Origin: Terriglobia bacterium | GTDB lineage: Bacteria; Acidobacteriota; Terriglobia; Acidiferrales; UBA7541 | Length of the DNA stretch: 58,562 nt | Reading direction: 5' to 3' | Assembly (NCBI GenBank): GCA_020073485.1 | Contig: JAIQFB010000031.1 | Coordinates: forward strand, 1 to 58,562 | Part shown: positions 7,640-52,056 of the stretch, piece after piece | How the letters are laid out: each line of letters starts with the position of its first letter | Position numbering within the stretch: position 1 is the stretch's first letter | Made by a program: the position numbers and the translations under genes | The notes under the pieces: model-generated | Seen by the model: the letters and a program-made list of their open reading frames with translations, nothing else | Told to the model about the DNA's origin: nothing | Databases searched by the model: none

Positions 7640-7682
7640 GGGCCGCCGCGGAATTTGTGAACAGCGGCAGCCAGGCAAGCGG

Positions 7683-26085: not shown

Positions 26086-27453
26086 ATGGTCATGAACAAT
26101 CTTGTGGGCCTGCTGATAGCCCTCATAATTACGGTTATCTTCGTTCGCAGATATTTGAACTCGCAGAAGAAGATGCACGAGCTTGCCAAACAAGCCGTGC
26201 AAAAAGGAAAATTGCGCTCCGACGGTCCCCAGGCGCAGCATCCCCACATTGACACAACTTATTGCATTGGTTGCGCCACCTGCACCACCGTTTGCCCGGA
26301 GGGCGACGTCCTGGCCATGCTCGGCGGGCAAGCGGTGATCGTCAACGGCTACAAGTGCATTGGCCACAGCCTGTGCGCCGAAGTTTGCCCCGTGGGGGCC
26401 ATCACCATGGTCATGGCCAGCCCGAGCATGGGCCGCGACATGCCGCAGCTCACCCCCCAGTACGAAACCAGCGTTTCCAATATGTATATCGTCGGCGAAC
26501 TCGGCGGCCTGGCCTTGATCAAGAACGCGATCAATCAGGGACGCGACTGCGTCGATACCATCGCCGCGAAAGTCCCGCGCCTGCGCAGCGGCAAGACTCC
26601 GCCCGAGGTCCTCGATGTCCTGATCGTTGGCGCGGGCCCCGGGGGAATCAGCGCATCGCTGCGAGCCATCGAGAAAAAACTGAAATACGTGACCGTGGAT
26701 GAGGGCGAAATGGGCGGCACCGTCTCCAAATATCCGCGCCAGAAACTTGTGCTGACCAGCCCGGTGGAACTCCCCATTTACGGAAAATTCAAGAAGACGG
26801 AACTTTCCAAGGAAGATCTGCTGGAAGTCTGGGCCGAAATCCTGCGGAAAGTCGATTTCAAATTCCGCAAGGGCGAAAAAGTGAGCGACATCAAGAAGGG
26901 CGAGGACGGGATTTTCACGGTCACCACGCCGAAAGCCGAATATCGCGCCCTGAACGTGGTCCTGGCGCTGGGCAAGGGAGGCAGCCCGCGCAAACTCGGC
27001 GTCAAGGGTGAGGACCTGCCCAAGGTGATGTACCGCCTGATGGAGGCGGACCACTACGTGAACAAGAATATCCTCGTGGTCGGCGGAGGCGACAGCGCCA
27101 TCGAAGCCGCCATGGGCCTGGCGCACCAGGTGGGCAACAAGGTCACGCTCTCCTACCGCAAGGAAGCTTTCACGCGCCTGAAAGACCGCAACGAAAAGCG
27201 CGTGGCGGAAAATGCGCGCACCGGAAAATTGAAAATCGTTTTCAATTCCATGCCCGTGGAATTCAAGGAAAAATCCGTCCTGCTTGAAGTAAACGGCACA
27301 GTTCAGGAAATTCGCAACGATTACGTGTGGATCTTCGCCGGCGGCGAACCTCCCACCGCCTTCCTCAAAAAAATCGGCATCCAGGTCGGATTGCGCGATT
27401 TGACCTCGGAAAGCAGCACCGAAGCAAAGCAATCCGTTCTCGTGCACCAGTAG
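26086..27453 (+). CDS. Membrane-anchored 4Fe-4S ferredoxin / thioredoxin-reductase-like flavoprotein
   Basis: A 455-residue fusion. Residues 4-21 form an N-terminal membrane anchor (NLVGLLIALIITVIFVR). A 2[4Fe-4S]-type domain follows. Cluster 1 is canonical (C60, C63, C66, C70). In cluster 2 the second cysteine is replaced by histidine (C91, H94, C97, C101). Then comes an NAD(P)/FAD oxidoreductase with VLIVGAGPGGISAS (about 179-191), GGTVSKYPRQKL, an NAD site ILVVGGGDSAIEAAMGLA and the closing WIFAGGEPPTAFLKKIGI. The redox-active CxxC of true thioredoxin reductases is absent. It probably moves electrons between NAD(P)H and an iron-sulfur partner at the membrane. Confidence 0.85.
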   Translation: MVMNNLVGLLIALIITVIFVRRYLNSQKKMHELAKQAVQKGKLRSDGPQAQHPHIDTTYCIGCATCTTVCPEGDVLAMLGGQAVIVNGYKCIGHSLCAEVCPVGAITMVMASPSMGRDMPQLTPQYETSVSNMYIVGELGGLALIKNAINQGRDCVDTIAAKVPRLRSGKTPPEVLDVLIVGAGPGGISASLRAIEKKLKYVTVDEGEMGGTVSKYPRQKLVLTSPVELPIYGKFKKTELSKEDLLEVWAEILRKVDFKFRKGEKVSDIKKGEDGIFTVTTPKAEYRALNVVLALGKGGSPRKLGVKGEDLPKVMYRLMEADHYVNKNILVVGGGDSAIEAAMGLAHQVGNKVTLSYRKEAFTRLKDRNEKRVAENARTGKLKIVFNSMPVEFKEKSVLLEVNGTVQEIRNDYVWIFAGGEPPTAFLKKIGIQVGLRDLTSESSTEAKQSVLVHQ

Positions 27454-30488: not shown

Positions 30489-31004
30489 CTATTGAGAACT
30501 GTACGAAGGCCCCTGCGCGCTGGAACTCCCCTGAGAATTCAACGGAGGATGTCCCGGCGGCAGCGAACCCCCCGGTGCGCCGGACGCGCCCGAAGCCCCG
30601 CCGACCAGATCGTTAAAATTCGGCAATTGCCCAGACGGCCCCGGTGTCATGGTCGCGTGCGGATCCGAGCCCGGCGCCGGATGCTGGATCGCTCCGCCGG
30701 CAGGCTGCGTGTTCTGCACTACCCAGACTCCGTTCTGCTTTTCCAGTGTGTAGTTGATCTGCATCCCCGCCCCCGCCGGCGCGCCGGTCTTGGGACGGAA
30801 TTCCACCGCTGCCTGCGCCTGGTTTCCCTGAATCGAAAAACTGTTCACGATCATGTCCATGGCGGACAGGTTGATGGTCTTCAGGCCGTTCAGGTGCGTG
30901 TTGATCCCCGCCCGGATGGCGTCCGCGTCGCTCTCCTGTTTCTTGCAGCCCGCGAACAGAATCAAGAATCCGGACAGAACAATGAATAGCGGCGTGCGCT
31001 TCAT
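30489..31004 (-). CDS. Small predicted lipoprotein
   Basis: A 171-residue protein with a lipoprotein signal: MKRTPLFIVLSGFLILFAGC, with cleavage before Cys20. The middle part (about 25-100) looks like a small alpha/beta domain (INTHLNGLKTINLSAMDMIV, AAVEFRPKTG). The last 60 residues are Gly/Pro/Ser-rich and probably disordered. The ATG at 31004 has AAAGGA upstream. It lies 66 bp after the bis-heme membrane protein on the same strand, so it may be the last gene of the cytochrome operon and could anchor or chaperone a periplasmic component. No specific family recognised. Confidence 0.72.
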   Translation of the reverse strand: MKRTPLFIVLSGFLILFAGCKKQESDADAIRAGINTHLNGLKTINLSAMDMIVNSFSIQGNQAQAAVEFRPKTGAPAGAGMQINYTLEKQNGVWVVQNTQPAGGAIQHPAPGSDPHATMTPGPSGQLPNFNDLVGGASGASGAPGGSLPPGHPPLNSQGSSSAQGPSYSSQ

Positions 31005-31070
31005 GCCAAATTCCTTTCGTGATCCAACGACATTCCTACCAGGTGGCTGTGACCTCCGATCGATCACCGT

Positions 31071-32015
31071 TTATCTATATCCCATCCCCAGGGCCACCAC
31101 AATGTGGATAATGGCCAGCAGCGCAAAAGAATAACTGAACGGCCGGTGCACCACATGCCAGAGATTGAAAACCGTCTTGGTTTGGGACAGGAACAGCACG
31201 CGCTTGTGCAGCGAAGCCTGCCGGCGCGCGTTGAAAATGGCGTTTTCCAGATCGACGTTGTTTGTCCGCAAGATTCCGAACAGGGAACCGACCCACCCGC
31301 CGAATCCTCCGGCGCGCAACCGCAGCCACGACACCTGGAACGGCCGCTTCAAATCCAGCCACATCATCCACCCAATCGCCGACAACACCGAAATGCTGGC
31401 TACCTGCGCCGCCGTCGGCAGCGCAAACAGATCGATCAGGTCGATGCCGATTTTGTCGTGCCGCTCTTCCGCCGCCCAACGCAGCTTGACCTCCGCTTCC
31501 TGGATTTCCTTGATCGAAAGTTCCGCGGCGTTCAAGCTTCTCGGAATTTGCGAATACAGATAGCGCCCGATAAATCCGCTGAGCGTCACCGCGGTCATGA
31601 TCCAGAAGGCCATTCCCGCGATCCCTCCGAATTTGAACGAGGAGTGCAGCGCGATCACCAGCGGCGCCGCCGTGCCCAGGATCACGTGGAAATCCAGCCA
31701 GTGCCGGGAATTCCCCTGCTTACCCAGCCAGCCCCAGCGCTTGCGCAGCGGGTAAAGGAAAATAATGAAAAACATCAGCACGCCGAACATCCCCAGGTTC
31801 ACGCCGATCGTACCGCTGGGGCGAAGCATGGCGTGCTTGGGAGAAAACGGCCGCTCGGTCGAGGGCAGAATGTAGTAGTTGAATCCGTAAATCAGGAATC
31901 CGCCGACGAACAGCGCGGCGGCAATCCATCCGGCCAGCAGCCGCTGGCGGTGCCGTTTTTCCGCGGACTCCGCCTGGTTGAAGATGGCGTTTTGTAGGGT
32001 CGTTGATTGGCTCAT
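31071..32015 (-). CDS. Bis-heme b-type transmembrane protein (ferric-reductase/cytochrome b-like)
   Basis: A 314-residue membrane protein with about six helices (residues 28-50, 70-90, 106-124, 132-155, 200-222, 290-312). Two helices each carry a histidine pair spaced HX13H: H110/H124 and H290/H304. This is the arrangement used to hold two stacked b hemes in ferric reductase and NADPH-oxidase-like proteins. H105 and H287 lie at the helix ends. No flavin or NAD domain is attached, so electrons probably come from quinol. It overlaps the secreted protein gene by 4 bp (ATGA) and shares the operon with a beta-barrel and a 43-motif cytochrome, suggesting the inner-membrane electron entry point. Confidence 0.75.
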   Translation of the reverse strand: MSQSTTLQNAIFNQAESAEKRHRQRLLAGWIAAALFVGGFLIYGFNYYILPSTERPFSPKHAMLRPSGTIGVNLGMFGVLMFFIIFLYPLRKRWGWLGKQGNSRHWLDFHVILGTAAPLVIALHSSFKFGGIAGMAFWIMTAVTLSGFIGRYLYSQIPRSLNAAELSIKEIQEAEVKLRWAAEERHDKIGIDLIDLFALPTAAQVASISVLSAIGWMMWLDLKRPFQVSWLRLRAGGFGGWVGSLFGILRTNNVDLENAIFNARRQASLHKRVLFLSQTKTVFNLWHVVHRPFSYSFALLAIIHIVVALGMGYR

Positions 32016-32887
32016 TGTTCTTTACCTATCTCCTCGTGAACGTCCACATCGAATCTCTTGTAGTCGGTGAAGCGATGCAGGTTGCGCCAGTGCTGGCGCG
32101 GGGTTTGCACGTCGATCGTCGCCGATTCCGGAACCCACACGGCATGTTGAAGGCCCTTGAACTGGTGCTGCGCAAAATAAACTTCGCTGCGCATGCCCGC
32201 GAGCCCGATATCGGTCAAGCCCGATTCCACCTTGGCCTCCAACTTCACGATCCCGCCGGATTGCGGATCGATCCACAGCGTGCCCGATAGGGGCAGGGGA
32301 TAATTCTTCCCGCGCAGCCGCAACGTGGCCGGAGAGGGAGTTCCCGCAATCGGCATGAACCGGATCCGCTGGTAGGAAATTCCGCCGATCGTTTCCGAGC
32401 CGTCCGACTCGAACGTGTAGCTGGCCTCATACATGGGATGTGCAACAAGCAGCAGGCTGGCGAAGCCCGAGGTTACCAGCAGCGTGCGAGCTGGATCGCG
32501 AAACGCCGTGTTGCGGGACGCCCGCGTCTCCGTGAATTTCCAAGCGCCGTTCTGGTCGCTGGTCTCGAACTGATAATCGTAGGCCGAGTTTTCGCGATAG
32601 AGCGTTCTGCCGCTCCCGTTCAACACCAACTGCGTGACCGTCTCCTTGCAGGTCAGGTTGGAAAACTGGTCGAAGTATTCCTGCACGTGCTTGCGCGTGC
32701 GCGCCAGCGTGTCGAGCGCCGGAGGAGCCGGTGCTGCGTCGGTCGTTGCGGCAGCGCCCCCCGCCGGGGTTTCCGGAACCTGCGCAAAACCACTGGCCGC
32801 CGCGAACGCGCAGGCGGCAATCAACGCCAGCACGCGCCAGCAAGCTGGCCGGGCCGGTCCCATCGTTTGAAGGATGCGCGGCCTCAT
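32012..32887 (-). CDS. Secreted protein of the cytochrome operon
   Basis: A 291-residue exported protein; the signal peptide spans about residues 1-36 (WRVLALIAACAFAAASGFAQ). The mature part begins with an Ala/Pro linker, then TRKHVQEYFDQFSNLTCKET and beta-rich sequence. The C-terminal GTLWIDPQSGGIVKLEAKV and SEVYFAQHQFKGLQHAVWVP resemble LolA/outer-membrane-lipoprotein-sorting-like folds, although no family is certain. Both ends overlap neighbours by ATGA, so it is made together with the beta-barrel and the b-type protein. It may be a periplasmic assembly factor for the barrel or cytochrome. Confidence 0.7.
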   Translation of the reverse strand: MRPRILQTMGPARPACWRVLALIAACAFAAASGFAQVPETPAGGAAATTDAAPAPPALDTLARTRKHVQEYFDQFSNLTCKETVTQLVLNGSGRTLYRENSAYDYQFETSDQNGAWKFTETRASRNTAFRDPARTLLVTSGFASLLLVAHPMYEASYTFESDGSETIGGISYQRIRFMPIAGTPSPATLRLRGKNYPLPLSGTLWIDPQSGGIVKLEAKVESGLTDIGLAGMRSEVYFAQHQFKGLQHAVWVPESATIDVQTPRQHWRNLHRFTDYKRFDVDVHEEIGKEQ

Positions 32888-34770
32888 TTGCGGAAGCCTC
32901 CAAAGCGGTAGCCGAACGTCAGATCCATCTGGCGGTAACTTATGTTCGTGCCGGTATTCCATGTGTACAGCCCTTCCAAAAAGTAGCGCGAGCCGATCGC
33001 CCAGTCCGCCGTTCCGGTCACGAATCGCGAGTTGGTGTTCGCGCTGAAATTGGAAATCAGGTGCTGCGTCCCGCCCTGCACGGCCACATGCAGCCGTTCG
33101 CTGATGCTCCGCGACAGCGAAACGAACTCGTAATTACCTTGGCCGAACGAACTGTTGAACTTCGTGTAACGCAAGTCCACATGCAGCCCCGTGTTGCGGA
33201 TCTCCCCGAACGTCAGCCCGTACATCTGGTTCCACGACGTGGACGTATCGGTGCTGCTCTTGCTGCGCCCCACGTCGGTGGAAACCGAAATGCGATAGGG
33301 CAGCGACAACGTCACTCCCCCGCTCAGCCCCTGAAACAGAAACTGATCGAGCAGCCCGGTGCTGATCAGCGCCGGATCGAACGTCGGAAGATTGCGAAGG
33401 TAATTGTGATTGAGGTCGAACGTCAGCAGCGTGATGGGCGAAAATCTCAAACTGCTGAAGCTCTGCGTGATTCCCGTGCCGTACGTGGCGCCCTGCAGCG
33501 CGGTCCGTCCGTTATCGGCCTGCAGGGAATTGTAAAACGAAAATTTGCGGCCCATCGAAAACGTGTTCTCAAAGAAGGCGAATTGCCGCGCCGCATGCCA
33601 GGCGATTGTGGTCATCGCCAAGCCCGCCGTGCTCGTGAATTTCACGTGATCGAAATCGCCCGCCTCATAGTTGACGAACGTTCCGGCGATCCGCTGGTTG
33701 GGATTGTAGCTCCAGGACGTCGGGTCCGGCGTCGATCCGCCAAACACGCCCGCCGTCGTGTGCTGCGAAAATTTATAGCCGAAGTAGCCGCCGTCAATCG
33801 TGCTCAAGCTCGGCGCGTAGGGCAGGAACAGCCGTCCGACCCCCATGGTTACCACCGAATCCGGGTTCTGGTAATACAGCCCCAAATGGTACGTGCGGTT
33901 CAGCAAGTCGTTCAGCGTCGTGGGCGAAGTCCCGCCCGCGCTCCCCGTGGTTTGCGTATTCACAATCCCGCGCCAGTAGCCCGTGAGATTCCAATGCGTG
34001 CCGCCGATGCGACTCATATCGGCTTGCACCAGCAGGCCCACTTGCCGCGTGCTGAAGCCACCCGGCTCGGAGAGATTTCCAAAATCAAAGCCGAGTCGCC
34101 CGCGAATCTGATTTTCAATAGGCGGCGCCACGACCGAAACCTTGGCGGCGCGTACCTCTTCATCCAGCGGATCGCCGTAGGAAAACGTTACGACCACCGG
34201 ATAATTTTCCGATTCGCGCGCATCGCTCTTGGTCTGCCGCAGGTGCACGCTTTGGATATCCAGATAGGCGATGTCGCCAACCACGGGATCTTCGTGCGAG
34301 GTTACGATCTCGGCGGCGCTGGACGTATCGGCCACCGAAAAAATGCGTACATCGGCGAGGGGTTCCTTGCCCTGAAATCGCACCGCATCCGTCGTTCCGC
34401 CGTTCGGGTCGGCGTGGACCACGTGCAGAACCATGCCTTCTTCAAGTTTCGCGTTGCGCCCGGCATCCAGATACACGGCGCCCTCGGAAATATATTTGAT
34501 GTGAAAAACGCACTTGTCCGTAACCGGGACTTGCGCCGGCGGGGGCGTGTTCGCAGCAGCAGGAGCAGGGCCAGAACCCGGAGCCTGCGAAGTTTCAGGC
34601 GCAGCAGCCGCCCCCGGCCAGGGCGTGGACGCCGGAGCAGTTTGGTTCTGGCCGTCCTGTCCGGCCTGCGCCCCACTCATGGGGAGCAGCGCAATTCCCA
34701 GTGCGATTGCGCAAGCTATAAAATTTCGGTGCAAATGTTCCATCCCCCGGTTTCCCATCCATTTAGCCAT
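32884..34770 (-). CDS. Outer-membrane beta-barrel protein of the cytochrome operon
   Basis: A 628-residue exported protein with a signal peptide (HRNFIACAIALGIALLPMSGAQA). The Pro/Ala-rich linker leads to a small N-terminal domain (about 85-195, IKYISEGAVYLDAGRNAKLEEG, similar in style to FlgT/SH3-like modules). From about residue 220 the sequence alternates polar and hydrophobic residues in many aromatic-ended strands (GRLGFDFGNLSEPGG, NLTGYWRGIVNT, LGLYYQNPDS), ending QMDLTFGYRFGGFRK. This is typical of a porin-like barrel of about 20 or more strands. No CXXCH is present. It overlaps the giant cytochrome by 8 bp, the gene pairing seen in porin-cytochrome conduits. ATG at 34743 is an alternative start. 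Confidence 0.8.
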   Translation of the reverse strand: MAKWMGNRGMEHLHRNFIACAIALGIALLPMSGAQAGQDGQNQTAPASTPWPGAAAAPETSQAPGSGPAPAAANTPPPAQVPVTDKCVFHIKYISEGAVYLDAGRNAKLEEGMVLHVVHADPNGGTTDAVRFQGKEPLADVRIFSVADTSSAAEIVTSHEDPVVGDIAYLDIQSVHLRQTKSDARESENYPVVVTFSYGDPLDEEVRAAKVSVVAPPIENQIRGRLGFDFGNLSEPGGFSTRQVGLLVQADMSRIGGTHWNLTGYWRGIVNTQTTGSAGGTSPTTLNDLLNRTYHLGLYYQNPDSVVTMGVGRLFLPYAPSLSTIDGGYFGYKFSQHTTAGVFGGSTPDPTSWSYNPNQRIAGTFVNYEAGDFDHVKFTSTAGLAMTTIAWHAARQFAFFENTFSMGRKFSFYNSLQADNGRTALQGATYGTGITQSFSSLRFSPITLLTFDLNHNYLRNLPTFDPALISTGLLDQFLFQGLSGGVTLSLPYRISVSTDVGRSKSSTDTSTSWNQMYGLTFGEIRNTGLHVDLRYTKFNSSFGQGNYEFVSLSRSISERLHVAVQGGTQHLISNFSANTNSRFVTGTADWAIGSRYFLEGLYTWNTGTNISYRQMDLTFGYRFGGFRK

Positions 34771-37700
34771 TAGGGTGGCACCCCGAAGCCGTACAGGTCA
34801 TTGGCCCGTAGACCGCATTCCTCACTCCGGAGTGCTGTCCGGTCCACTGCGACAACGCATGGCATCCATTCGTGCAATTAAAAGTTGCAAAGTTTGTCGC
34901 CGACCCCGGATTTTGGTGGCAGGTGGCGCAAGTGGCCCCGTTGTGCGGGATTCTCCACCAGGTGTGGTTGAAGGTCGCCGTTGTCCAGTTCGTGGTCGTG
35001 TGGCAGGTCGAGCACGTGCTGGCCGGCGGGAAGCCGTTGCCGGTATGGTCCGGTACATTTCCTCCCAGAGTTGCCGTGCTTTGCCACTGGGCCGTGTGGC
35101 AGCTGTAGCAATCGGTCGGCGGGACGGCCGAACTGGTGTGGCAAAGATTGCAGGCCACCGTGACGTGCGCCCCGGTCAGCGGGAATCCGGTTGTGCTGTG
35201 GTCAAACGTCGCGCCCAGCCACGAGGTGGTTGTGTGGCATGAAGCGCAGGTCGTCGGATATCCCAGCGTGATGTGATTCGGCACCGCCCCGCCCAGCGTC
35301 GTGGTGCTTTGCCACGCGGCCGTGTGGCAGCTGTAGCAGTCTGTCGGCAGCGTGCCGCTGTAGTTGCTGTTCACGTGGCACGACGCGCAGGCCACACTCG
35401 TGTGCGCCCCGGTCAATGGGAACGTCGTCGTGGCGTGATTGAATGTCGAGGTCGTCCAATTCGACGTGGAATGGCAGATCGAACAATCGGTCGGGAAGCC
35501 CGCCGTAATGTGGTTCGGAACCGTGCCCCCGAGCGTCGCGGTGCTTTGCCACGCGGCCGTGTGGCATCCGTAGCAGGCCGTGGAATTCAGCGTGTAATTG
35601 TTGTTCACGTGGCACGAAGCGCAGGGCGTCGGCGTCGGCGAAACGTGCATTCCGGTCAGCGCAAATCCGGTCGTGCTGTGGTCAAACGTCGCCGTCGTCC
35701 AGCTCACCGTGGTGTGGCACGTGTTGCAATTCGCCGCCGCGAACGTGGCCCCGGCCGAGGAGTGCGGCGGCGCGTTGGTCTGCTGCCAGGTGGTCAGGTG
35801 GCAGCCAGAATTTCCGCAATCGGTCGGCGCGATATTCAGCGCGTAATTGTTATTGATGTGGCACAGATTGCAGGCCACCGTCGTATGGCTGTTTGTCAAC
35901 GGAAAGCCCGTTGTCGAGTGATTGAAAACTCCCGCCGTCCAGGTCGTAATTGGGTGGCATGACGCGCACTGCGCCGCCGTGGTCGGGAACCCGGCGGCGA
36001 CGTGGTTCGGAACGCTGCCGCCAAGCGTTGTGGTGCTTTGGAACGCCGCCGAGTGGCAACCGTAGCAATCCGTCGAATTCAGTGTGTAGTTGTTATTCAC
36101 ATGGCAGGCGACGCAAGCCGTCGGTGTCGGCGAGGCATGCGTTCCCGTCAGCGCAAATCCGGTCGTGCTGTGGTCAAACGTCGCCGTCGTCCAGCTCACC
36201 GTGGTGTGGCAGGTGTTGCAATTGGCCGCCGCAAACGCCGCGCCCGCCGTCGGGTGCACCGGATTATTCGTGCCCTGCCAGGTGGTCAGGTGGCAGCCGG
36301 AATTTCCGCAATCGGTCGGCGCGATGGTCAGCGCGTAGTTGCCGTTGATGTGGCACAGAGCGCAGGCCACGCCGGCATGTCCGTTGGTCAGCGGGAATCC
36401 GGTCGCGGTGTGATCAAACACGCCCGCCGACCAGGTCGTAATCGGGTGGCACGTGGCGCAGGCCGAAGCCGTGGTCGGGAATCCCGCCGTGACGTGATTC
36501 GGAACATTGCCGCCAATCGTCGTGGTGCTCTGGAACGCAGCCTGGTGGCATCCATAGCAGTCCGCCGAATTGAGCGTGTAATTGTTATTGATATGGCAGG
36601 AGGCGCACGGCGTGGGCGTCGGGGACATATGCGTGCCCGTCAGCGTAAATCCGGTAATGCTGTGATCGAACGAAGCTGCGTCCCATCCTGTTGTCGTATG
36701 GCACGTGGCGCAATTGGCCGCCGCGAATGCCGCTCCGGAGGTGGAGTGCACCGGATTGTTCGTCCCCTGCCAGGTCGTTAAATGGCATTGCGAATTTCCG
36801 CAGTCGGTCGGTGCGATGGTCAACGCATAATTATTGTTGATGTGGCACAAAGCGCAGGCCACGCCGGCGTGCCCGTTGGTCAGCGGGAATCCGGTCGCGG
36901 TGTGATCAAACACGCCCGCCGACCAGGTCGTAATCGGGTGGCACGTGGCGCAGGCCGAAGCCGTGGTCGGGAATCCAGCCGTGACGTGGTTCGGAACATT
37001 GCCGCCAATCGTCGTGGTGCTCTGGAATGCGGCCGAGTGGCAACCGTAACAATCCGTCGAATTCAGCGTGTAATTGTTGTTCACATGGCAGGCGATGCAC
37101 GCCGTGGGCGTCGGAGACATGTGCGTCCCGGTCAGCGTGAATCCCGTCGTGCTGTGATTGAACGATGCCGTCGTCCAGCTCACGGTCGTATGGCAGGTCG
37201 CGCAGTTCGCCGCCGCGAATGCCGTTCCGGACGTCGAGTGCACCGGATTGTTCGTCTGCTGCCAGGTGGTCAGGTGGCACTGCGAATTTCCGCAATCGGT
37301 CGGCGCAATTGTCAGCGTGTAATTGTTGTTGATGTGGCACGACGCGCAGGCCACATTGGCATGGCCGTTCGTCAGCAGGAATCCCGTGGTGCTGTGATCG
37401 AAGGTCGCCGTCGTCCAGCTCACCGTGTTGTGGCAGGTGCTGCAATTCGCGGCGGCAAACGCGGCCCCGGCCGAGGGGTGCACGGGATTCGTGGTCGTCT
37501 GCCAGGTAGTCAAATGGCATTGCGAGTTTCCGCAATCGGTCGGCGCAATCGTCAGATTGTAATTGTTATTGATATGGCAGGAAGCGCAGGGCACATTGGC
37601 GTGGCCGTTGGTCAGCAGGAAGCCCGTGATGGCGTGGTCAAAGCTGGCGTTCAGCCAGGTATCGAACGTCGTGTGGCAGGTCTCGCAGGTAGTCGAGAAT

Positions 37701-38230
37701 TTTGCCGCCACGTGATTGGGGTTCACGGTCTTCTGGAAATCCGTCAGGTGGCACGACGCGCAGGCCGTCGAGAGCCCGGTAAATTGCCCGACCGCCGCGT
37801 TCTTGTGGCACAGGTCGCATTCCACCACCGCGTGCGCGCCCAGCAGCGGAAACCGGTTGAAGTGATTCTTGATCGCTGTCACGGATACATTCCAGCCCGA
37901 GGGCGTGTGGCACTGCGCGCAGTTGGCGCCCATCTGTCCGCGATGAATATCCGCGTGGCAGTCCGCGCAATTCTTACCCACATTCGTGAAGACAGGCTTG
38001 GTGTGACACTCCGTGCAGCGCACCTTCTCGTGCATCCCGCGGAGCGGGTAACGGGTGGAATCGTGATTGAATTCGGGAACCGCGCGAATCGGAGTCCAGC
38101 TCGTGCTGGTGTGGCAGTTCTCGCAGGGAATGTTCAGAGGGCCGTGCGGACTCCGGCTTGGCTGTCTTTGAGCCTCGGCCGTGCGCACAAATGCCAGCGC
38201 GAGAAGAATTAGCGCCAGCCGGCTGCCCAC
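34763..38230 (-). CDS. Giant multiheme cytochrome c, 43 heme-attachment-like motifs
   Basis: A 1155-residue exported c-type cytochrome; GTG start, signal peptide LALILLALAFVRTAEA. I count 43 motifs: 36 CX2CH, six CX4CH (CGNSQCH three times, CGNSGCH twice, CTASGCH once) and one CX3CH (CTNGCH near the end). CX4CH is an accepted heme site in tetraheme cytochromes c3; CX3CH is unusual. The middle holds four 164-residue modules with six motifs each. Each module also has six non-motif histidines (in PNH, FDH, NGH, NPVH, FDH, GTH), enough for bis-His ligation of every heme. No lipobox or membrane anchor follows, so it is periplasmic, outer-surface or extracellular. The downstream barrel and b-type protein suggest extracellular electron transfer, which is inference. 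Confidence 0.93.
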   Translation of the reverse strand: MGSRLALILLALAFVRTAEAQRQPSRSPHGPLNIPCENCHTSTSWTPIRAVPEFNHDSTRYPLRGMHEKVRCTECHTKPVFTNVGKNCADCHADIHRGQMGANCAQCHTPSGWNVSVTAIKNHFNRFPLLGAHAVVECDLCHKNAAVGQFTGLSTACASCHLTDFQKTVNPNHVAAKFSTTCETCHTTFDTWLNASFDHAITGFLLTNGHANVPCASCHINNNYNLTIAPTDCGNSQCHLTTWQTTTNPVHPSAGAAFAAANCSTCHNTVSWTTATFDHSTTGFLLTNGHANVACASCHINNNYTLTIAPTDCGNSQCHLTTWQQTNNPVHSTSGTAFAAANCATCHTTVSWTTASFNHSTTGFTLTGTHMSPTPTACIACHVNNNYTLNSTDCYGCHSAAFQSTTTIGGNVPNHVTAGFPTTASACATCHPITTWSAGVFDHTATGFPLTNGHAGVACALCHINNNYALTIAPTDCGNSQCHLTTWQGTNNPVHSTSGAAFAAANCATCHTTTGWDAASFDHSITGFTLTGTHMSPTPTPCASCHINNNYTLNSADCYGCHQAAFQSTTTIGGNVPNHVTAGFPTTASACATCHPITTWSAGVFDHTATGFPLTNGHAGVACALCHINGNYALTIAPTDCGNSGCHLTTWQGTNNPVHPTAGAAFAAANCNTCHTTVSWTTATFDHSTTGFALTGTHASPTPTACVACHVNNNYTLNSTDCYGCHSAAFQSTTTLGGSVPNHVAAGFPTTAAQCASCHPITTWTAGVFNHSTTGFPLTNSHTTVACNLCHINNNYALNIAPTDCGNSGCHLTTWQQTNAPPHSSAGATFAAANCNTCHTTVSWTTATFDHSTTGFALTGMHVSPTPTPCASCHVNNNYTLNSTACYGCHTAAWQSTATLGGTVPNHITAGFPTDCSICHSTSNWTTSTFNHATTTFPLTGAHTSVACASCHVNSNYSGTLPTDCYSCHTAAWQSTTTLGGAVPNHITLGYPTTCASCHTTTSWLGATFDHSTTGFPLTGAHVTVACNLCHTSSAVPPTDCYSCHTAQWQSTATLGGNVPDHTGNGFPPASTCSTCHTTTNWTTATFNHTWWRIPHNGATCATCHQNPGSATNFATFNCTNGCHALSQWTGQHSGVRNAVYGPMTCTASGCHPNG
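35480..37450 (-). repeat. In-gene tandem modules, 492-bp unit, four copies
   Basis: Within the giant cytochrome gene, equivalent sites recur every 492 bp: the complement of the CHPITTW codons starts near 35939, 36431 and 36923, with a diverged copy near 37415. The two middle copies are nearly identical over more than 100 bp, for example from 36411 and from 36903. The unit is 164 codons and carries six heme motifs, so the number of hemes can change in frame by unequal recombination. Boundaries are approximate. Confidence 0.85.
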
Positions 38231-38489
38231 CTGGAAAAAGCGGAAAATGTTCGACCCTCGGTCCGACGTAAACTCGTGTCCATGCGCCTGTTACAGCACA
38301 ATGGAAGTTTACCGCTCCGGCAAACGGTCCTCTACTGGCCTGAGGGGCAGTAATGGATCAGGTCCCTCTTCCGCTGGGGGGTAGCGGAGCTCCGACAGCT
38401 AATCGCAGGCTGTTCCCGTAGATGCCCGAAGATCCAGCCGGGTTGCCATATAGCGGCAATGGTTATACCGCTGCCGTTAATATGCAAGC

Positions 38490-40469
38490 CTAATTCAGGC
38501 GCGGCACATTCGGTCCATGGCAATCGGCACATGCCTTGGACGTGGGCTTGTAGAACAGCACCAGTTTTCCCTGAACTTCGCGTTCCAGGGAGTGGCACTG
38601 CGGGCAGCCCACATTTTCGTGTCCGCCGGTGAGAGGGAATTGCGTGCGTTTGTCGTGATCGAACGTGGAAGGGGTCCAGCGTTGAGAGGTATGGCAATCC
38701 GCGCAGGGCGTCACGCCGTTCTTGGCCGCGAACTGCCCACCGTGCGCGTCGGTATGGCAGGCGTCGCAGTTTTGCGGCGTTCCCTTGAATTGAATGTCAT
38801 GCGTGCCGGCAATCGGCTTGTGGCAATCGTTGCAGGCCACCACGCGATGCGCTCCCACCAGGTCAAATTTCGTCTTCGAGTGGTCGAAGCCCGTGATCTC
38901 GATCCACGAGCGCACGTTGTGGCAGGCCTCGCATCCCAGCGGGATTCCATTCGCGCGTTTCAGTGCCATGCGGTCCTTGAATTCGCCCTTATGAGGATCG
39001 GTGTGGCACGCCGTGCAGGTGCGGTCCTCGAAATGGAACGGCAGGATTTTATCCGTGCGTCCGCCCAGCCCGGCCTTGTGGCAATCCGAGCAGGCTACCG
39101 CGGCGTGTGCTCCGGTCAGTGCGAACCGCGTGTTCCTGTGTTTTGCGATCGTGAAGGTGGACCGGTGGAAATCCTTCACCGTGTGGCAATCCTCGCACCG
39201 GTTCTGGTACGGCGCGGCCGCGAACTGCTTGTCGTGCTCATCTTTGTGGCAATCCAGGCAGGCCGCGAATTTCACCTTATACACCGTGTCCTTGCCCGCC
39301 GGAGTGTGGCACTTGTCGCAGGCCACGGCCGCATGTTTTCCTTCCAGCGGATATTTGGAGGTCGCGTGTTCCTTCACGCCGAATAGAGACGGCTTCCAGC
39401 CGTCGACTTTGTGGCATTCGGCGCACTCGCCCTTACTGGCCGTTTCCTGGAACTGGCCCTTGTGGGGGTCCGGCGTATGGCACACCGCGCAGGTGCCGAA
39501 TTCCAGCGGCTTCTTGAAATCGCCCTTGGCGTGGCAATCCGTGCAAGCCACCTTCGCGTGCATTCCGAGCAAGGGATACTTCGTCTTGGAATGGTCAAAC
39601 TGCGACGACATATTGCTGCTGTTGATGATCTTCCATCCGCTCGTCGTGTGGCACGATTCGCAAGCCGCCTTGAACGCTCCCTTGTGCGGATCGGTATGGC
39701 ACGCCGTGCAGGTGTCAAACTTCAGCCCCTTATACTTGACCGTTTTGTCCGGCCCGGAAGGGAAGTGGCACTTCTCGCAGGTTACTTTCGCGTGCAACCC
39801 GGTCAGCGGATATTTGGTTTTGGAGTGGTCGAACTGATTCGCCTGTTTCCAGTCCACGATGTTGTGGCAACTGGTGCAATCCGGTCCGAGTTGCCCCTTG
39901 TGTGGATCCTGGTGGCAGCTGACGCAATCTTTCGACAGCCCGAAAAACGAGCGCGTCAGATCTTTATCGCGGATCAACGCGCGCACCGCCGGATTCATGT
40001 GCGACGGCGTGTGGCATTTTTCGCAGGCGACTCCGGCATGCTTATCCACCAGAGGATAACCGGTAAGCTTGTGATCGAATTGTTTCTGAGGCGGGTCCCA
40101 GTGGATCAGTGCAAAGTCCGCGCCGTTGTGCTCCAGGTGGCATCGCACGCAATCCCTGCCGTTGGGATTCTGCATCCCCAGCTGCGCGTGATATCCGGTC
40201 TTCGCCGCCAAAGCCCCCGCAACTTCCTTATGGCATTCCAGGCACTTGAACGCCGGCGTGCTGGTCCCGAACTGGTGGCACGAGGTGCATTGCGTCGCCC
40301 CGTTCAAGGACTCATGAGCTTTGGAAAGCGGCCCAGGCGAAATCTGAGCCTGCGCGCTGCTTGAAATGAAAAGCAGCCCGGCAAAAACCACGAGCACGGC
40401 AACCAGTAATCGCGCCGAATCAAAACCGCGAATTAGGCTTTTGCTTGCGTCTGGTTCCCGGAAGTACAC
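38490..40469 (-). CDS. Multiheme cytochrome c, 23 CXXCH motifs
   Basis: A 659-residue exported cytochrome with 23 canonical CXXCH motifs and no CX3/CX4 variants. A signal peptide (ARLLVAVLVVFAGLLFISSSAQA) follows a GTG start at 40469, chosen because GGAGG lies 6 nt upstream; the ATG at 40580 has no such site. Recurrent units such as QFDHSKTKYPLTGLHAKVTC and CHTDPHKGAF place histidines at FDH, GxH and DPH, consistent with bis-His c hemes of the cytochrome c3/c7-like class. Lysine-rich loops differ from the Thr/Asn-rich giant cytochrome next door. It probably lies in the periplasm and relays electrons to the downstream complex, from which it is separated by 259 bp. Confidence 0.93.
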   Translation of the reverse strand: MYFREPDASKSLIRGFDSARLLVAVLVVFAGLLFISSSAQAQISPGPLSKAHESLNGATQCTSCHQFGTSTPAFKCLECHKEVAGALAAKTGYHAQLGMQNPNGRDCVRCHLEHNGADFALIHWDPPQKQFDHKLTGYPLVDKHAGVACEKCHTPSHMNPAVRALIRDKDLTRSFFGLSKDCVSCHQDPHKGQLGPDCTSCHNIVDWKQANQFDHSKTKYPLTGLHAKVTCEKCHFPSGPDKTVKYKGLKFDTCTACHTDPHKGAFKAACESCHTTSGWKIINSSNMSSQFDHSKTKYPLLGMHAKVACTDCHAKGDFKKPLEFGTCAVCHTPDPHKGQFQETASKGECAECHKVDGWKPSLFGVKEHATSKYPLEGKHAAVACDKCHTPAGKDTVYKVKFAACLDCHKDEHDKQFAAAPYQNRCEDCHTVKDFHRSTFTIAKHRNTRFALTGAHAAVACSDCHKAGLGGRTDKILPFHFEDRTCTACHTDPHKGEFKDRMALKRANGIPLGCEACHNVRSWIEITGFDHSKTKFDLVGAHRVVACNDCHKPIAGTHDIQFKGTPQNCDACHTDAHGGQFAAKNGVTPCADCHTSQRWTPSTFDHDKRTQFPLTGGHENVGCPQCHSLEREVQGKLVLFYKPTSKACADCHGPNVPRLN

Positions 40470-40867
40470 CAAATTCCTCCAGCAAACGGGTGCGGATGCA
40501 ATCGCCTTGGCCAGAATGACCACTTTCCCGCGTCGGCGACTCGGAATTCGCCCTCGGCCCCCGTTCATCCAAACTACCACTGGAGGAGCTTTGCTTCCGA
40601 AAAGCTTAAAGATGTGTGTCCTTATTGAAAAACTGTACCGAAGTGCAGTGCGTCGCTGTCCATAGAGCAGATGGCGGGCAGGATGTTGTTATGGGGAAGG
40701 TTTAAGTAGCACAGCAACTCTTGGCTGTGCGGTTTTTGCAATCTTACTCAGATCGACGACGTACCCCTGGCCCTCAAAATCGCACAGCCAAGAGTGGCCG
40801 TGCTGCTAAAATCTATCCGCAGCATGTTTAGCCGCTGACGCCTTGGTCAAGCCGCCTTCCAGGCTCC
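40470..40867. other. Intergenic region upstream of the 23-heme gene
   Basis: This 398-bp gap holds the promoter and GGAGGAATTTG ribosome-binding site of the 23-heme cytochrome near 40470-40480, and an inverted repeat at 40708-40809. A possible in-frame extension of the cytochrome up to 40580 has arginine-rich, non-signal-like sequence and was not accepted. Nothing else was recognised. Confidence 0.55.
40708..40809. repeat. Inverted repeat, AGCACAGC...CTCTTGGCTGTGC arms
   Basis: The left arm (40708-40735) contains CTCTTGGCTGTGCGGTTTTT. The right arm (40778-40809) contains its near complement, GCACAGCCAAGAG, then GTGCTGCTA. The 40-bp loop has no feature. It is related to the repeat at 27465-27582 and could also act as a terminator for the gene ending at 40868. 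Confidence 0.75.
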
Positions 40868-41431
40868 TCACCGATGCAACCCTGGCTTCCAACGCACGTC
40901 CTGCTTTCCTTTATCATTCAAAAATCGCGCTAGCACAAATAAAAGATCCGAGAGCCGGTTGACGTACCGGATGACCGCTGGATTTACAGCTCCTTCGGCA
41001 GCCAGCCGCACGATCTCCCGCTCCGCCCGCCGCGTCACTGTCCGCGCAAGATGCAAATACGCCGACGCCGCGCTGCCTCCGGGCAGCACAAAACTGTCGA
41101 GCGGCGCAAGATCAGCATTGTACAAATCGATCGTGTTCTCCAGCCACGTGACTTGCTCTTCGGTGATGCGCAGCGCAGGGGTGCCCGCGCCCGGCCTCTC
41201 CGGCACGCACAAATCCGCGCCCGCGTCGAACAGGTCATTCTGAATGTGATTCAAAATTTTGAGCACCGCAGCCTCGCTCACGTGCAGGCTCGCCACGCCA
41301 ATCGCGGAATTGGCTTCGTCCACCTCGCCGTATGCGGACACCCGAAGGTGGAATTTGGGAAGGCGAGAGCCGTCGCCCAGCGACGTCTGTCCCTCATCCC
41401 CCGTGCGCGTATAAATTTTGTCGAGTTTCAT
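40868..41431 (-). CDS. ATP:cob(I)alamin adenosyltransferase, PduO type
   Basis: A 187-residue PduO/MMAB-type adenosyltransferase that makes adenosylcobalamin from reduced cobalamin and ATP. The family N-terminus is intact (KLDKIYTRTGDEGQTSLGDG), followed by GEVDEANSAIGVA, and the C-terminal helix holds LPGGSAASAYLHLARTVTRRAER and the closing YVNRLSDLLFVLARFLN. The ATG at 41431 removes a 68-residue unrelated extension. The gene is divergent from the iorA-like gene (172 bp between them). No cobalamin riboswitch box was found upstream. Confidence 0.93.
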   Translation of the reverse strand: MKLDKIYTRTGDEGQTSLGDGSRLPKFHLRVSAYGEVDEANSAIGVASLHVSEAAVLKILNHIQNDLFDAGADLCVPERPGAGTPALRITEEQVTWLENTIDLYNADLAPLDSFVLPGGSAASAYLHLARTVTRRAEREIVRLAAEGAVNPAVIRYVNRLSDLLFVLARFLNDKGKQDVRWKPGLHR

Positions 41432-41603
41432 CGTGAGTTCTGCCGGATCGATCAAATCGTATCCTGATTTGTAACGCGCAGGAAGCCCGGATTTCATATT
41501 CACGGCGCGGGGAATGATTGACCGTTTACCACTTGCCGTTGTGCGCCGGGAAAAGCATTGCCGTCCTTGACGAATCGCGGCGTTCGCAATAACCTCTGGG
41601 CAT

Positions 41604-42071
41604 ATGAGCGCCATCACCTTGAAAGTCAACGGCACCTCTCACACACTGGATCTGGATCCCACAACGCCGCTCCTGTACGCCCTGAGCGACGACCTGCAAC
41701 TGCGCGGCCCGAAATTCGGCTGCGGCCTCGGCCAGTGCGGGGCCTGCACCGTGCTCGTCAAAGGCCAGGCGGTCCGCTCCTGCATCACTCCGGTGGAGAC
41801 CGTGCAGGGCGTGGAAATCACCACCCTTGAAGGCCTCGGCACCATCGAAAAGCCGCACGCCATCCAGAAAGCCTTTATCGAAGAGCAGGCTGCGCAGTGC
41901 GGATTCTGCCTCAACGGCGTGATTCTCACCGCCAAAGCGTTCCTCGACAAAAATCCAAAGGCGAACGAAAAACAGATTCAGGAAGCGATGTCGCGCGTGC
42001 TCTGCCGCTGCTTCACGCACACGCGCATGTTGCGCGCCATCGGCCGCGCGAAACAGGAGATGGCCCGATGA
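41604..42071 (+). CDS. iorA: 2Fe-2S subunit of a molybdenum hydroxylase (isoquinoline 1-oxidoreductase alpha-like)
   Basis: A 155-residue small subunit carrying two [2Fe-2S] clusters. The plant-type cluster is in FGCGLGQCGACTVLVKGQAVRSC; the second, four-helix-bundle cluster uses CGFC (about 99-102) and CRC (about 135-137). It passes electrons from the Mo site of the partner to an acceptor. The length matches IorA and aldehyde dehydrogenase small subunits. Its stop overlaps the start of the large-subunit gene (ATGA). No signal peptide is present; it is expected to be co-exported with the Tat-bearing large subunit. Confidence 0.92.
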   Translation: MSAITLKVNGTSHTLDLDPTTPLLYALSDDLQLRGPKFGCGLGQCGACTVLVKGQAVRSCITPVETVQGVEITTLEGLGTIEKPHAIQKAFIEEQAAQCGFCLNGVILTAKAFLDKNPKANEKQIQEAMSRVLCRCFTHTRMLRAIGRAKQEMAR

Positions 42072-44440
42072 AAAATCAATCTCCAAAGACGAACGAAAAT
42101 TCGCTGACTCCTGACGCGCAGCAAGCCCTGCAAAGCGCAGGATTTTCCCGCCGCTCATTTTTGCAGGGAACCGGCGCCTTGATCGTCACCTTCAGCATGG
42201 GCGACATGCTCGCCCCGCAAACTGCGCGCGCCCAATTCGGCGGCGCCGATGCCGCCTCCGACGCTCCGCCCGCGAGTCAAGTCGACTCCTGGATCGCCAT
42301 CGCCCCGGACGGCAGCGTCACCGCCTACACCGGAAAAGAAGAACTCGGCCAGGGCATGTCCACCGCGCAAACACAACTGGTCGCCGAGGAACTCTGCGTG
42401 CCGCTGCAGCGCGTCAATCTCATCATGGCCGATACATCCATGACCCCCGACCAGGGCGTCACCTCCGGCAGCCAGTCGAGCCCCGCGAATTTCAATCGCA
42501 ACAATCTCGCGGGCGCCGCTGCTACCGCTCGCCAGGCGCTGCTGCAGATGGCTTCCACGAAACTGAATCTTTCCGCCGATCAGCTCACCGCCGTCGATGG
42601 CGAGATCCGCTCAAAGACAGATCCCAAGAAAAAAATCGGCTACGGCGAACTCGTGGCCGGCAATAAGTTCAACCTCAAGGTGGACACCAACGCCCCGAGA
42701 AAGCCCGCCAGCGAATGGACTGTCCTCGGCAAACCGATCCCACGCCCGGATATGCCCGCAATGGCCACCGGCCGGTTCGAGTACGTTCACAACGTAAGCG
42801 TCCCCGGCATGTTGCATGGCAGAGTCGTGCGCCCGAATGCAGTCGGCGCAACCTTGGTGAACGTGGACGAAAGCTCCGTCGCCGGAATACCCGGCCTCGT
42901 AAAGATTGTCGTGCGCAAGAATTTTGTCGGCGTCGTAGCCGAAAAACCCTGGCAAGCCGTGCAAATCGCCAGCCAATTGAAAATCAATTGGGCCCCAGGC
43001 CCCGCTCTGCCCAACCACGATACCTTTTACGATTACCTTCGGAATCAGAAGCCGACCCGCGACACCCTCTCGGTGAACTCCAAGGACGTGGACCAGAAAC
43101 TCGCCGATTCTCCGACCGTGGTCAAGGCCACCTACTACCACCCATACCAGATGCACGGGTCGGTCGGGAGTTCCTGCGCCGTCGCCGACGTGCAGGGCGA
43201 CAAAGCCACGATCTGGTCGCCCACGCAAGGCGTCTGGCACCAGCGCGGCTCCCTGTCCCTGCTGCTTGGATTAAAGCCCGCGAACATTCGCGTGATCTAC
43301 CGCCGCGGCTCGGGCTGCTACGGGATCAACGGCGCCGATGCTGTCACCTTCGACGCCGCCCTGATGTCGCAAGCCGTCGGCAAACCGGTGCGCGTGCAGC
43401 TTTCGCGCAAGGACGAAATGGCCTGGGAAAATTACGGCTTCGCCTTCGTGATGGACGAACGTGCCGGCCTCGACGCCCAGGGAAATATCACCGCGTGGGA
43501 TCACGAAGCGTGGTCTCCCGTCCTGGGCAACCGCCCCGGCTACAACAAACCGGGAAACGTTATCACCGGAATGCTCGCTGGATTCGAGCCGGACGAATTC
43601 CGCCCCAGAGCTAACGCCCCCGAGCCAAACGCCTACAACAACAACGGCAACAGCGTGGCCTCGTACATGGCCGGCCAAGTGAACGGCATCGCCAAGGGCA
43701 CGGGCACGATCAAATCCGAACGCTCCCTCATTCACAATACGAAATCCTATTTTTGGACCGGCCCGTTGCGTTCCCCGCAGCGCCTGCAAAACACATTCGC
43801 TCACGAATCGTTCATGGACGAACTCGCCGCCAAGGCCCAGGCCGACCCGGTCGCATTCCGTTTGCGCCACTTGAGCAATTCCCGTTTGAGCGATGCGGTG
43901 AAAGCCGTGGCGAAAGCGGCAAGTTGGGATGCCAGGCCATCGCCAAGCCCGCGCGCCAAGAAAACCGGCGTGGTCACCGGTCGCGGAATTTCCTGCGTCG
44001 CCTACGAAGGCGACAATGGGTACGCCGCCCTGTTCGCCGAAGTCGAAGTCGACACCGCAACCGGAAAAGTCACCGTGAAGCACATCGTCGTCTCCACCGA
44101 CGCCGGCCCGATTTCCAATCCCGATGGCCTGCGCAATCAATGCGAAGGCGGCGCCCTGCAAGGCATGAGCCGCGCCCTCGGCGAAGAAGTTACCTGGGAC
44201 GACCAGAATGTCACCTCGGTCGACTGGCGAACCTATCACAGCCTGCCGCTCGGCTTTGACGTCCCCAAAGTCGACGTCGTCCTGCTCAATCGCCCTGATG
44301 AGGAGGCCACCGGCGCCGGCGAAACCGCCATCACCACCGTCGCCGCAGCCATCGGCAACGCCATCTTCGACGCCACCGGCGTGCGCATCCGCCAGATTCC
44401 GTTCACGCCCGAACGCGTCAAGGCCGCGCTGCATACTTAG
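42068..44440 (+). CDS. iorB: Molybdopterin-binding large subunit, isoquinoline 1-oxidoreductase beta-like
   Basis: A 790-residue Mo-cytosine-dinucleotide hydroxylase subunit of the XDH family. The Tat signal FSRRSFLQGTGALIVTF lies at about residues 26-42. Conserved cofactor segments include GKEELGQGMSTAQTQLVAEEL, MADTSMTPDQGVTSGSQSS, GSVGSSCAVADVQGDKAT, WSPTQGVWHQRGS, YRRGSGCYGINGAD and the C-terminal catalytic glutamate region ATGAGETAITTVAAAIGNAI. Substrates in this group are aldehydes or N-heterocycles and the enzyme is periplasmic. The ATG at 42068 overlaps the small-subunit stop. A cytochrome-containing gene follows, which could accept the electrons. Confidence 0.92.
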   Translation: MKNQSPKTNENSLTPDAQQALQSAGFSRRSFLQGTGALIVTFSMGDMLAPQTARAQFGGADAASDAPPASQVDSWIAIAPDGSVTAYTGKEELGQGMSTAQTQLVAEELCVPLQRVNLIMADTSMTPDQGVTSGSQSSPANFNRNNLAGAAATARQALLQMASTKLNLSADQLTAVDGEIRSKTDPKKKIGYGELVAGNKFNLKVDTNAPRKPASEWTVLGKPIPRPDMPAMATGRFEYVHNVSVPGMLHGRVVRPNAVGATLVNVDESSVAGIPGLVKIVVRKNFVGVVAEKPWQAVQIASQLKINWAPGPALPNHDTFYDYLRNQKPTRDTLSVNSKDVDQKLADSPTVVKATYYHPYQMHGSVGSSCAVADVQGDKATIWSPTQGVWHQRGSLSLLLGLKPANIRVIYRRGSGCYGINGADAVTFDAALMSQAVGKPVRVQLSRKDEMAWENYGFAFVMDERAGLDAQGNITAWDHEAWSPVLGNRPGYNKPGNVITGMLAGFEPDEFRPRANAPEPNAYNNNGNSVASYMAGQVNGIAKGTGTIKSERSLIHNTKSYFWTGPLRSPQRLQNTFAHESFMDELAAKAQADPVAFRLRHLSNSRLSDAVKAVAKAASWDARPSPSPRAKKTGVVTGRGISCVAYEGDNGYAALFAEVEVDTATGKVTVKHIVVSTDAGPISNPDGLRNQCEGGALQGMSRALGEEVTWDDQNVTSVDWRTYHSLPLGFDVPKVDVVLLNRPDEEATGAGETAITTVAAAIGNAIFDATGVRIRQIPFTPERVKAALHT

Positions 44441-47599: not shown

Positions 47600-47807
47600 A
47601 ACACCTCCTAAGGAATCGCTCCAATGTGCTTTAGAGTAGAAAATCCCGTCGCGGGTTTCAAACTTTTCCGCGATCTGCCGCCCGCCCCGCCACCGCAAGA
47701 TATCTCACTTGCAACTCTCGGTAAACTGTAATACTAACTCTACGAGCCGGAATACGCGAAATTCGAAAATCGAAGTATCCAGGCATCGAAAAGGGAGGAA
47801 ATTCAGA

Positions 47808-51970: not shown

Positions 51971-52056
51971 AAGTCCCGTAGGGACGAAACAACGTAGCCC
52001 ACCGCGGAAGCGGTGGCAGATTTCGCGGGATCCACATAAGTCCCGTAGGGACGACA
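51971..52056. repeat. Two copies of AAGTCCCGTAGGGACGA
   Basis: Palindromic AAGTCCCGTAGGGACGA occurs at 51971 and again at 52038, flanking a segment with its own CCACCGC-GGAAGCGGTGG hairpin. The arrangement is a small inverted-repeat array of non-coding type. Confidence 0.75.

Follow-up and report, generated by a model that had tools for sequence, protein, structure and literature searches.

Two neighboring genes of an acidobacterial genome encode c-type cytochromes with 23 and 43 heme motifs, and the question raised by this locus is whether they belong to a conduit for electrons across the cell envelope, of which kind, and in which direction it would run. The locus lies on contig JAIQFB010000031.1 of Terriglobia bacterium (GCA_020073485.1), whose 58,562 nucleotides were analyzed whole and are called the window hereafter. 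A preliminary description had proposed a complete trans-envelope conduit made of four overlapping minus-strand genes, with a 23-heme cytochrome gene upstream and a lipoprotein gene downstream. All of these genes are present in that order, and a trans-envelope conduit is still the best reading, given the conserved gene order, the barrel model and the two invariant HX13H pairs of the membrane protein CYTB. We propose that the set probably forms a conduit of the PCC3 type across both membranes, with an NAD(P)H-type input and extracellular electron transfer directed outward. The parts are the following.

38490..40580, minus strand: MHC23, 23-heme c-type cytochrome (23 CX2CH motifs; Cytochrome_C7, E 5.9e-26; 23-heme homologues)
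34763..38230, minus strand: MHC43, triheme-repeat cytochrome (43 motifs; Cytochrome_C7 in 10 stretches, E 1.7e-40)
32884..34770, minus strand: BARREL, predicted outer-membrane beta-barrel with a small N-terminal FlgT_C-like domain (AlphaFold2 model; Foldseek and VIA matches)
32012..32962, minus strand: SEC, putative secreted accessory protein (signal-like stretch at residues 44-62; kept in relatives)
31071..32015, minus strand: CYTB, inner-membrane protein of the PCC3 type, probably with two b hemes (HX13H pairs, SGXXG)
30489..31067, minus strand: LIPO, lipoprotein-like accessory protein, less conserved (hydrophobic stretch before a Cys near the N terminus)
26086..27453, plus strand: FESFAD, oxidoreductase of the pyridine-nucleotide type with two ferredoxin-type motifs and a membrane anchor at the N terminus (Fer4_10, Pyr_redox_3)

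The open reading frames of neighboring genes overlap at 34763-34770 (MHC43 and BARREL), 32884-32962 (BARREL and SEC) and 32012-32015 (SEC and CYTB). Pfam recognized cytochrome c7 repeats in MHC43 and MHC23 and assigned no family to the window copies of BARREL, SEC, CYTB or LIPO. The N termini of both cytochromes are signal-like only. Since the listed frames of MHC23 (from a GTG at 40580) and SEC extend 5' of the signal-like stretch, the starts of these two proteins are uncertain, and the true start of MHC23 probably lies further downstream.

The gene order is kept in acidobacterial relatives. A scan of public genomes with the CYTB alignment gave 135 relatives, of which the best 80 were kept, all with acidobacterial titles. 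Where at least 2.5 kb of sequence was available upstream of CYTB, BARREL was found in 69 of 74 loci and SEC in 70 of 74; where at least 8 kb was available, two or more multiheme cytochrome frames were present in 45 of 48. Downstream, FESFAD accompanies CYTB in 69 of the 71 loci with at least 1.5 kb of sequence: 60 of these obey a strict rule (same strand, within 1.5 kb of CYTB), five are inverted and four are on the same strand with frame bounds outside the rule. The same set thus recurs in many genomes and is therefore more than a chance arrangement. BARREL was found in 18 of 61 genomes, the window genome counted, and LIPO has relatives in 13 of the 80 loci. A CYTB match, weak in some cases, occurs in 42 of 247 sampled Acidobacteriota genomes, so at least a relative of this protein, and with it the system, reaches very common soil bacteria. 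The isolate AB60 (L072) has SEC and neither barrel nor array cytochrome in the stretch examined. Four loci (L109, L112, L114 and L117) carry MHC23, CYTB and FESFAD without barrel, array or SEC, and these sets look like a core module.

A related set occurs outside the phylum. Plasmid pEMTOL02 of Emticicia oligotrophica (Bacteroidota) encodes, in one run after a cytochrome c biogenesis gene, relatives of CYTB (195.9 bits), FESFAD (475.1 bits) and the barrel (54.7 bits), together with a 23-heme cytochrome, a 40-heme cytochrome and a small protein; SEC was not found in this run. Bits are quoted here because the E-values refer to seven proteins only. Matches on plasmids of Pseudoalteromonas and Methylophaga lie in other neighborhoods, and the plasmid search with BARREL found no proteobacterial PCC3 sequence. 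Among 20 more distant acidobacterial loci, the multiheme cytochrome beside CYTB is complete in 12 and has 23 hemes in 9 of them, the exceptions being L125 and L127 (24 hemes) and L135 (20 hemes). The second cytochrome is complete in 10 of these loci and its heme number is 1 mod 3 in eight, with L125 (24) and L127 (27) as exceptions; in these two variant sets, the partner of the 24-heme cytochrome begins differently. L124 encodes one 51-heme cytochrome instead of two proteins. FESFAD was seen in 11 of the 20 distant loci, and L138 holds a CYTB-FESFAD pair (about 6695-9227, minus strand) with no multiheme cytochrome frame within 19 kb.

CYTB is the part that links the set to a described type of conduit. 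Alignment of 15 sequences revealed two invariant HX13H pairs (H110/H124 and H290/H304), an invariant W286 and an invariant S146-G147-x2-G150 motif, and W106 is nearly invariant (at least 90% of the sequences). The alignment thereby carries SGXXG and two WX3HX13H motifs, which are described as the signature of PCC3 and PCC4 inner-membrane proteins and are read there as ligands of two b hemes (PMC5566968). The predicted model is a helical bundle (mean predicted local distance difference test, pLDDT, 74.5). Weak Pfam matches were obtained in some members, to DUF4405 in 7 of 15 and to Ferric_reduct in 4 of 15 (best E 0.0032).

FESFAD was missed in the preliminary description. The gene directly follows CYTB in most relatives; in the window it lies on the plus strand, beyond a UPF0182 gene, and is inverted relative to most of them. 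The protein combines an N-terminal hydrophobic stretch with Fer4_10 (E 3e-10) and Pyr_redox_3 (E 4.1e-41) domains, and the nearest NCBIfam model is YpdA (162.5 bits, below the cut-off of 339.9). Thioredoxin-reductase-type enzymes carry a CxxC pair. The only invariant cysteines among 16 FESFAD homologues are the seven in the cluster motifs, and such a pair is therefore not conserved, which fits a route of electrons from the flavin to the iron-sulfur (Fe-S) clusters rather than to a disulfide. The second motif (residues 91-102) reads C-x2-H-x2-C-x3-CP in 16 of 16 sequences, with His invariably occupying the position of the second Cys. The Emticicia protein shares this His, and its other ferredoxin motif has a Ser for the second Cys. 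Positive residues after the anchor suggest that the FESFAD domain is cytoplasmic, and its membership of the set suggests an exchange of electrons with the cytoplasm and not only with quinone.

The two cytochromes follow different numerical rules. The window MHC23 has 23 CX2CH motifs, and 23 hemes were counted in 44 of 51 complete-frame MHC23-class frames. The seven exceptions are two small unrelated frames, one frame with a run of N, and the pieces, four in all, of a pair of split genes (11+12 and 4+19, each summing to 23). By contrast with this fixed number, the array cytochrome varies. MHC43 itself holds 36 CX2CH, one CX3CH and six CX4CH motifs, in agreement with the 43 hemes claimed in the preliminary description. 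Since it contains exactly 86 Cys and 86 His, all cysteines lie within motifs and one extra His falls to each heme. The CX4CH sites occupy the positions of CX2CH in adjacent repeat units. In 55 arrays, motif spacing recurs with a lag of three hemes (mean difference 1.30 residues) or of six (1.44 residues), whereas the mean difference at other lags is 10.5 to 11.8 residues, without recurrence. In 49 arrays, Emticicia included, the first five N-cap spacings are 36-16-16-34-19 with few exceptions. This period of three and the near-constant N-cap spacing define an array of a six-heme N-cap, n triheme units (n = 4 to 24) and a last heme, hence 3n+7 hemes; MHC43 has 12 units.

The rule holds widely. 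Heme numbers are 1 mod 3 in 46 of 51 complete-frame arrays with at least 15 hemes (7 of 58 complete-frame array-class frames were left out for having fewer), and the values found are 19, 22, 25, 28, 31, 34, 37, 40, 43, 46, 49, 55, 61 and 79. The exceptions are split genes in L043 and L100 (pieces of 5 and 23 in L100, together 28), an early end without C-cap in L099, and one missing motif in each of L063 and L077. Because a plain binomial test is invalid for related sequences, changes were counted on a CYTB tree, which requires at least 37 changes of array heme number and three changes of the residue mod 3. This tree has 82 rows, 50 of them with heme counts, and 23 of its 79 inner branches are open, support being given by the Shimodaira-Hasegawa-like approximate likelihood ratio test (SH-aLRT) only; the count leaves out L039, L043, L051, L100, L101 and L113 (open or split) and shorter pieces. 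Between species, the ends of the arrays are 61% and 57% alike and a random middle unit 50%; when the middle units of a single protein are compared with each other, the figure is 61% (49 arrays, leaving out the same six loci and L099). Each added heme costs 24.9 residues.

The window and its close relative L038, whose CYTB proteins are 95% identical, have 43 and 49 hemes, a gap of two units or of one 492-bp superunit, and superunit copies inside the window array reach a DNA identity of 0.91. Most genomes are metagenome bins, in which assembly may collapse or expand the repeats of any given array. Most units are divergent, which disfavors an assembly artefact as the general cause of length variation, and the genome of the isolate Occallatibacter savannae AB23 (L093), which carries the full set, has a 34-heme array. 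Searches of PDB sequences with MHC43 and MHC23 gave no match at E up to 0.01. The Pfam match of MHC43 to Mtrc-MtrF_II-IV (E 2.2e-24) was set aside as an inflated score, because a Tenuivirus movement protein family also passes its cut-off on the same heme repeats (34.9 bits, cut-off 25), a clearly spurious match.

The AlphaFold2 model of BARREL contains 22 strands in residues 222-623, and its Foldseek and VIA matches are outer-membrane barrels, TonB-dependent receptors and OprD-type porins, in line with the porin-like barrel of the preliminary description. The strand number is approximate because the mean pLDDT is 62.7 and the predicted template-modelling score (pTM) 0.48. The best VIA match is a TonB-dependent receptor (Z 18.3, root mean square deviation 4.9, 343 residues aligned), and OprD-type porins reach Z 17.8 with 280 aligned residues. 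A FlgT_C match was found in 5 of 14 members (best E 6.7e-06), and Pfam and NCBIfam detected no porin family, MtrB included, in these 14 proteins at E up to 0.05. Membership of the MtrB/OmbB families was rejected on this absence of a family match. MtrB is not among the 50 VIA matches shown, which says nothing either way, and the PDB sequence search with BARREL gave only matches of E 0.81 and 1.2. Pfam scans of the window SEC protein found no family that would point to a function.

How would these parts work together? We infer the direction of flow and the NAD(P)H step, whereas the parts, their motifs, their co-occurrence and the pairing of a fixed 23-heme with a variable 3n+7-heme cytochrome can be read from the sequences themselves. 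In the outward conduit that we propose, FESFAD, anchored on the cytoplasmic side, would oxidize NAD(P)H or a ferredoxin and reduce the two b hemes of CYTB. From there the electrons would pass to the 23-heme cytochrome, long enough at about 1 nm per heme to reach the barrel, which would house the contact across the outer membrane, and the triheme-repeat cytochrome would carry the electrons from there to an outside acceptor. MHC23 would then be the probable periplasmic and barrel-side wire and MHC43 the probable surface wire. As to length, the 12-heme GSU1996 is termed a 12 nm protein in the title of a reference, MtrA is given as about 100 Å long (PMC5566968), and a length sufficient to cross the periplasm has been suggested for the periplasmic cytochromes of PCC3 (21-27 hemes; PMC10734462). 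With about 1 nm for each heme, 23 hemes would roughly cover the periplasm, as proposed for PCC3. A constant MHC23 would suit a distance that does not vary, that of periplasm and barrel together. Array variation by whole triheme units would suit a wire extending from the cell, whose reach may change while its two conserved ends stay intact. The likeliest role of the conduit would be to rid the cell of reductant under oxygen shortage, with Fe(III), humics or other external compounds as acceptors.

Flow through these parts might also be directed inward, which is the strongest of the alternatives. In PCC3 as drawn by He et al., Fe(II) or another external donor feeds electrons through both cytochromes to CYTB and the quinone pool, and FESFAD would be a side partner or serve reverse transfer to NAD(P)+ or ferredoxin. 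We consider this rather unlikely here. It agrees with the published model (PMC5566968), with the higher expression of the inner-membrane protein gene of PCC3 copy 2 reported for the iron-oxidizing Sideroxydans CL21 (PMC12442390), and with the PCC3-like sets L126-L128, which do without FESFAD. Against it stand the company of CYTB and FESFAD in 69 of 71 acidobacterial loci, on the Emticicia plasmid and in the cytochrome-free pair of L138, and the lower expression of PCC3 genes on Fe(II) in S. lithotrophicus ES-1 (PMC8788666), so that the expression data in these reports point both ways. Electrons moving inward to NAD(P)+ would also go uphill, the inside being negative, and the membrane potential would favor outward flow if the cytoplasmic donor is NAD(P)H. 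The arrays might instead serve as an electron store that holds charge between oxic and anoxic spells and needs no outside acceptor, as their many hemes at few residues per heme would allow and as storage has been proposed for large multiheme cytochromes (PMC7399161, PMC10138318); a store needs no conserved barrel, and the four MHC23-CYTB-FESFAD sets that lack barrel and array would already store, which makes this use very unlikely. We give even less weight to a system like NADPH oxidases (NOX) or ferric reductases, which would serve iron uptake or defense, and not respiration or redox balance, by reducing O2, peroxide or Fe(III) close to the cell. CYTB does have the two HX13H pairs of ferric-reductase domains and the weak Ferric_reduct matches mentioned above, and FESFAD would supply the flavin side, but such short-range chemistry requires neither 66 c hemes nor a barrel, and no iron-uptake gene was named among the scanned neighbors in the window.

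Several observations weigh against the outward PCC3-type conduit itself. CYTB, with 314 residues, shows six segments by simple hydropathy and the PCC3 inner-membrane proteins five; its fold gave no Foldseek match at E up to 0.001, and its best VIA match, to a receptor, has a Z of 7.7, which is background, with STEAP4 (Z 6.5) among unrelated proteins. FESFAD is not indispensable, as it is missing in 2 of 71 loci and near the otherwise full distant sets L126, L127 and L128, where CYTB, the multiheme cytochromes and the barrel are kept, and 5 of 80 loci have no barrel. Confidence in the BARREL model is only moderate. The assignment to PCC3 draws on published descriptions of its parts, the placement of each cytochrome is inferred from PCC3, and the Sideroxydans PCC3 is discussed as a route of iron oxidation, i.e., of inward flow (PMC5566968, PMC12442390). 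Bearing these points in mind, we also put forward, tentatively and as doubtful rather than expected, a quinone-independent version of the outward conduit in Acidobacteriota and at least one Bacteroidota plasmid. Electrons might pass from NAD(P)H or ferredoxin to the Fe-S/flavin adenine dinucleotide (FAD) enzyme, a diheme b relay, a fixed 23-heme ruler for periplasm and barrel, and a surface wire with a reach of about 19 to 79 hemes, tens of nanometers, that evolves by whole triheme units, allowing soil bacteria to dump reductant when oxygen fails.

Other features surround the cluster. Genes for a PduO-type cobalamin adenosyltransferase and an aldehyde-oxidase-like molybdopterin protein adjoin it (40868-44440), and a PduO gene adjoins MHC23 in L021 too. 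Three proteins with propellers of the Vgb-lyase type are encoded nearby, at 19527-21773 (with a cytochrome c domain), 44579-46183 and 46319-47698. An Acido-Lenti-1 RNA (RF01687, 49.2 bits) at 51972-52017 on the minus strand agrees with the acidobacterial origin.

Compared with known systems, the set shares with MtrAB/MtoAB and OmbB-OmaB-OmcB the common principle of a barrel with periplasmic and often surface multiheme cytochromes. The cytochromes have 10 hemes in the former and 8 and 12 in the latter (PMC4245776), against 23 and 43 here, and the decaheme model TIGR03508 (MtrA/DmsE type) scores 49.9 bits for a cut-off of 192.2. The first acidobacterial porin-cytochrome sets, in Holophaga, are described as of the MtrB and ExtB/E types (PMC7399161). 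A closer likeness exists to the c7 wires of Geobacter (GSU1996, 12 hemes; GSU2210, 27 hemes), which are also single chains of c7-type triheme domains (PMC10138318); the 10 Cytochrome_C7 stretches of MHC43 and the three-heme period of the 55 arrays follow this pattern. The Geobacter wires are described as periplasmic and without a barrel. In GSU1996, each domain includes one His-Met heme; the window array has exactly two His per heme, as if all were bis-His. OmcS, OmcE and OmcZ filaments are polymers of small cytochrome monomers; the sequence here encodes a single long chain, and nothing tested speaks for, or against, the polymerization that the preliminary description had considered. The 24/49-heme cluster of Burkholderiales also has two large cytochrome genes before the porin gene, and its larger cytochrome varies by gain or loss of CXXCH-bearing domains while the smaller is constant; its porin is OmbB-like, it is known from three closely related genomes, and the section devoted to it reports no cytoplasmic oxidoreductase and no triheme rule (PMC7399161).

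Judged by its encoded parts, the set matches PCC3 and is not a new kind; the Fe-S/FAD partner, the phyla that carry it and the arithmetic of its hemes mark it as a variant of this putative conduit. As described by He et al. in 2017, PCC3 comprises a porin, two very large cytochromes and an inner-membrane protein (PMC5566968). A beta-barrel porin gene, two adjacent genes for cytochromes with very many hemes (23 and 43 here), an inner-membrane protein of about 300 residues with SGXXG and two WX3HX13H motifs, few residues per heme and repeats are all found in our cluster. The extracellular cytochromes of PCC3 have a median of 34 and up to 85 hemes and the periplasmic ones a median of 21 (PMC5566968), so the inner-membrane heme b protein and the giant cytochrome, which the preliminary description had taken as signs of a new system, are both features of PCC3. 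A claim to a record heme number was likewise dropped in view of these 85 hemes and of a paper that mentions "113 heme" (PMC7082337). An acidobacterial description of this set was not found in the literature searched, though one may exist elsewhere or under other names; nor did we find in print the related Bacteroidota plasmid set, the FESFAD partner or the fixed-23/3n+7 rule. The hosts named by He et al. are Alpha-, Beta- and Gammaproteobacteria, and the main text of that paper is without the word Acidobacteria (PMC5566968). In Gallionellaceae, PCC3 counts are 10-18 and 26-35, with 21, 24 and 27 for periplasmic cytochromes, and follow neither rule (PMC10734462). Here, in contrast, one cytochrome is fixed at 23 hemes and its partner has 3n+7, which raises a geometric question: is the 23-heme protein a gauge of the envelope, and its partner the part that determines how far the wire extends outside? 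PCC3, known from genomes since 2017 and mostly discussed for iron oxidizers, is described as a system whose function is yet to be established (PMC12442390). The present set differs from PCC3 as published by the added SEC protein and by FESFAD at the side of the inner-membrane protein, and this conserved, putatively cytoplasmic Fe-S/FAD partner offers a biochemical handle on the electron source or sink of PCC3.

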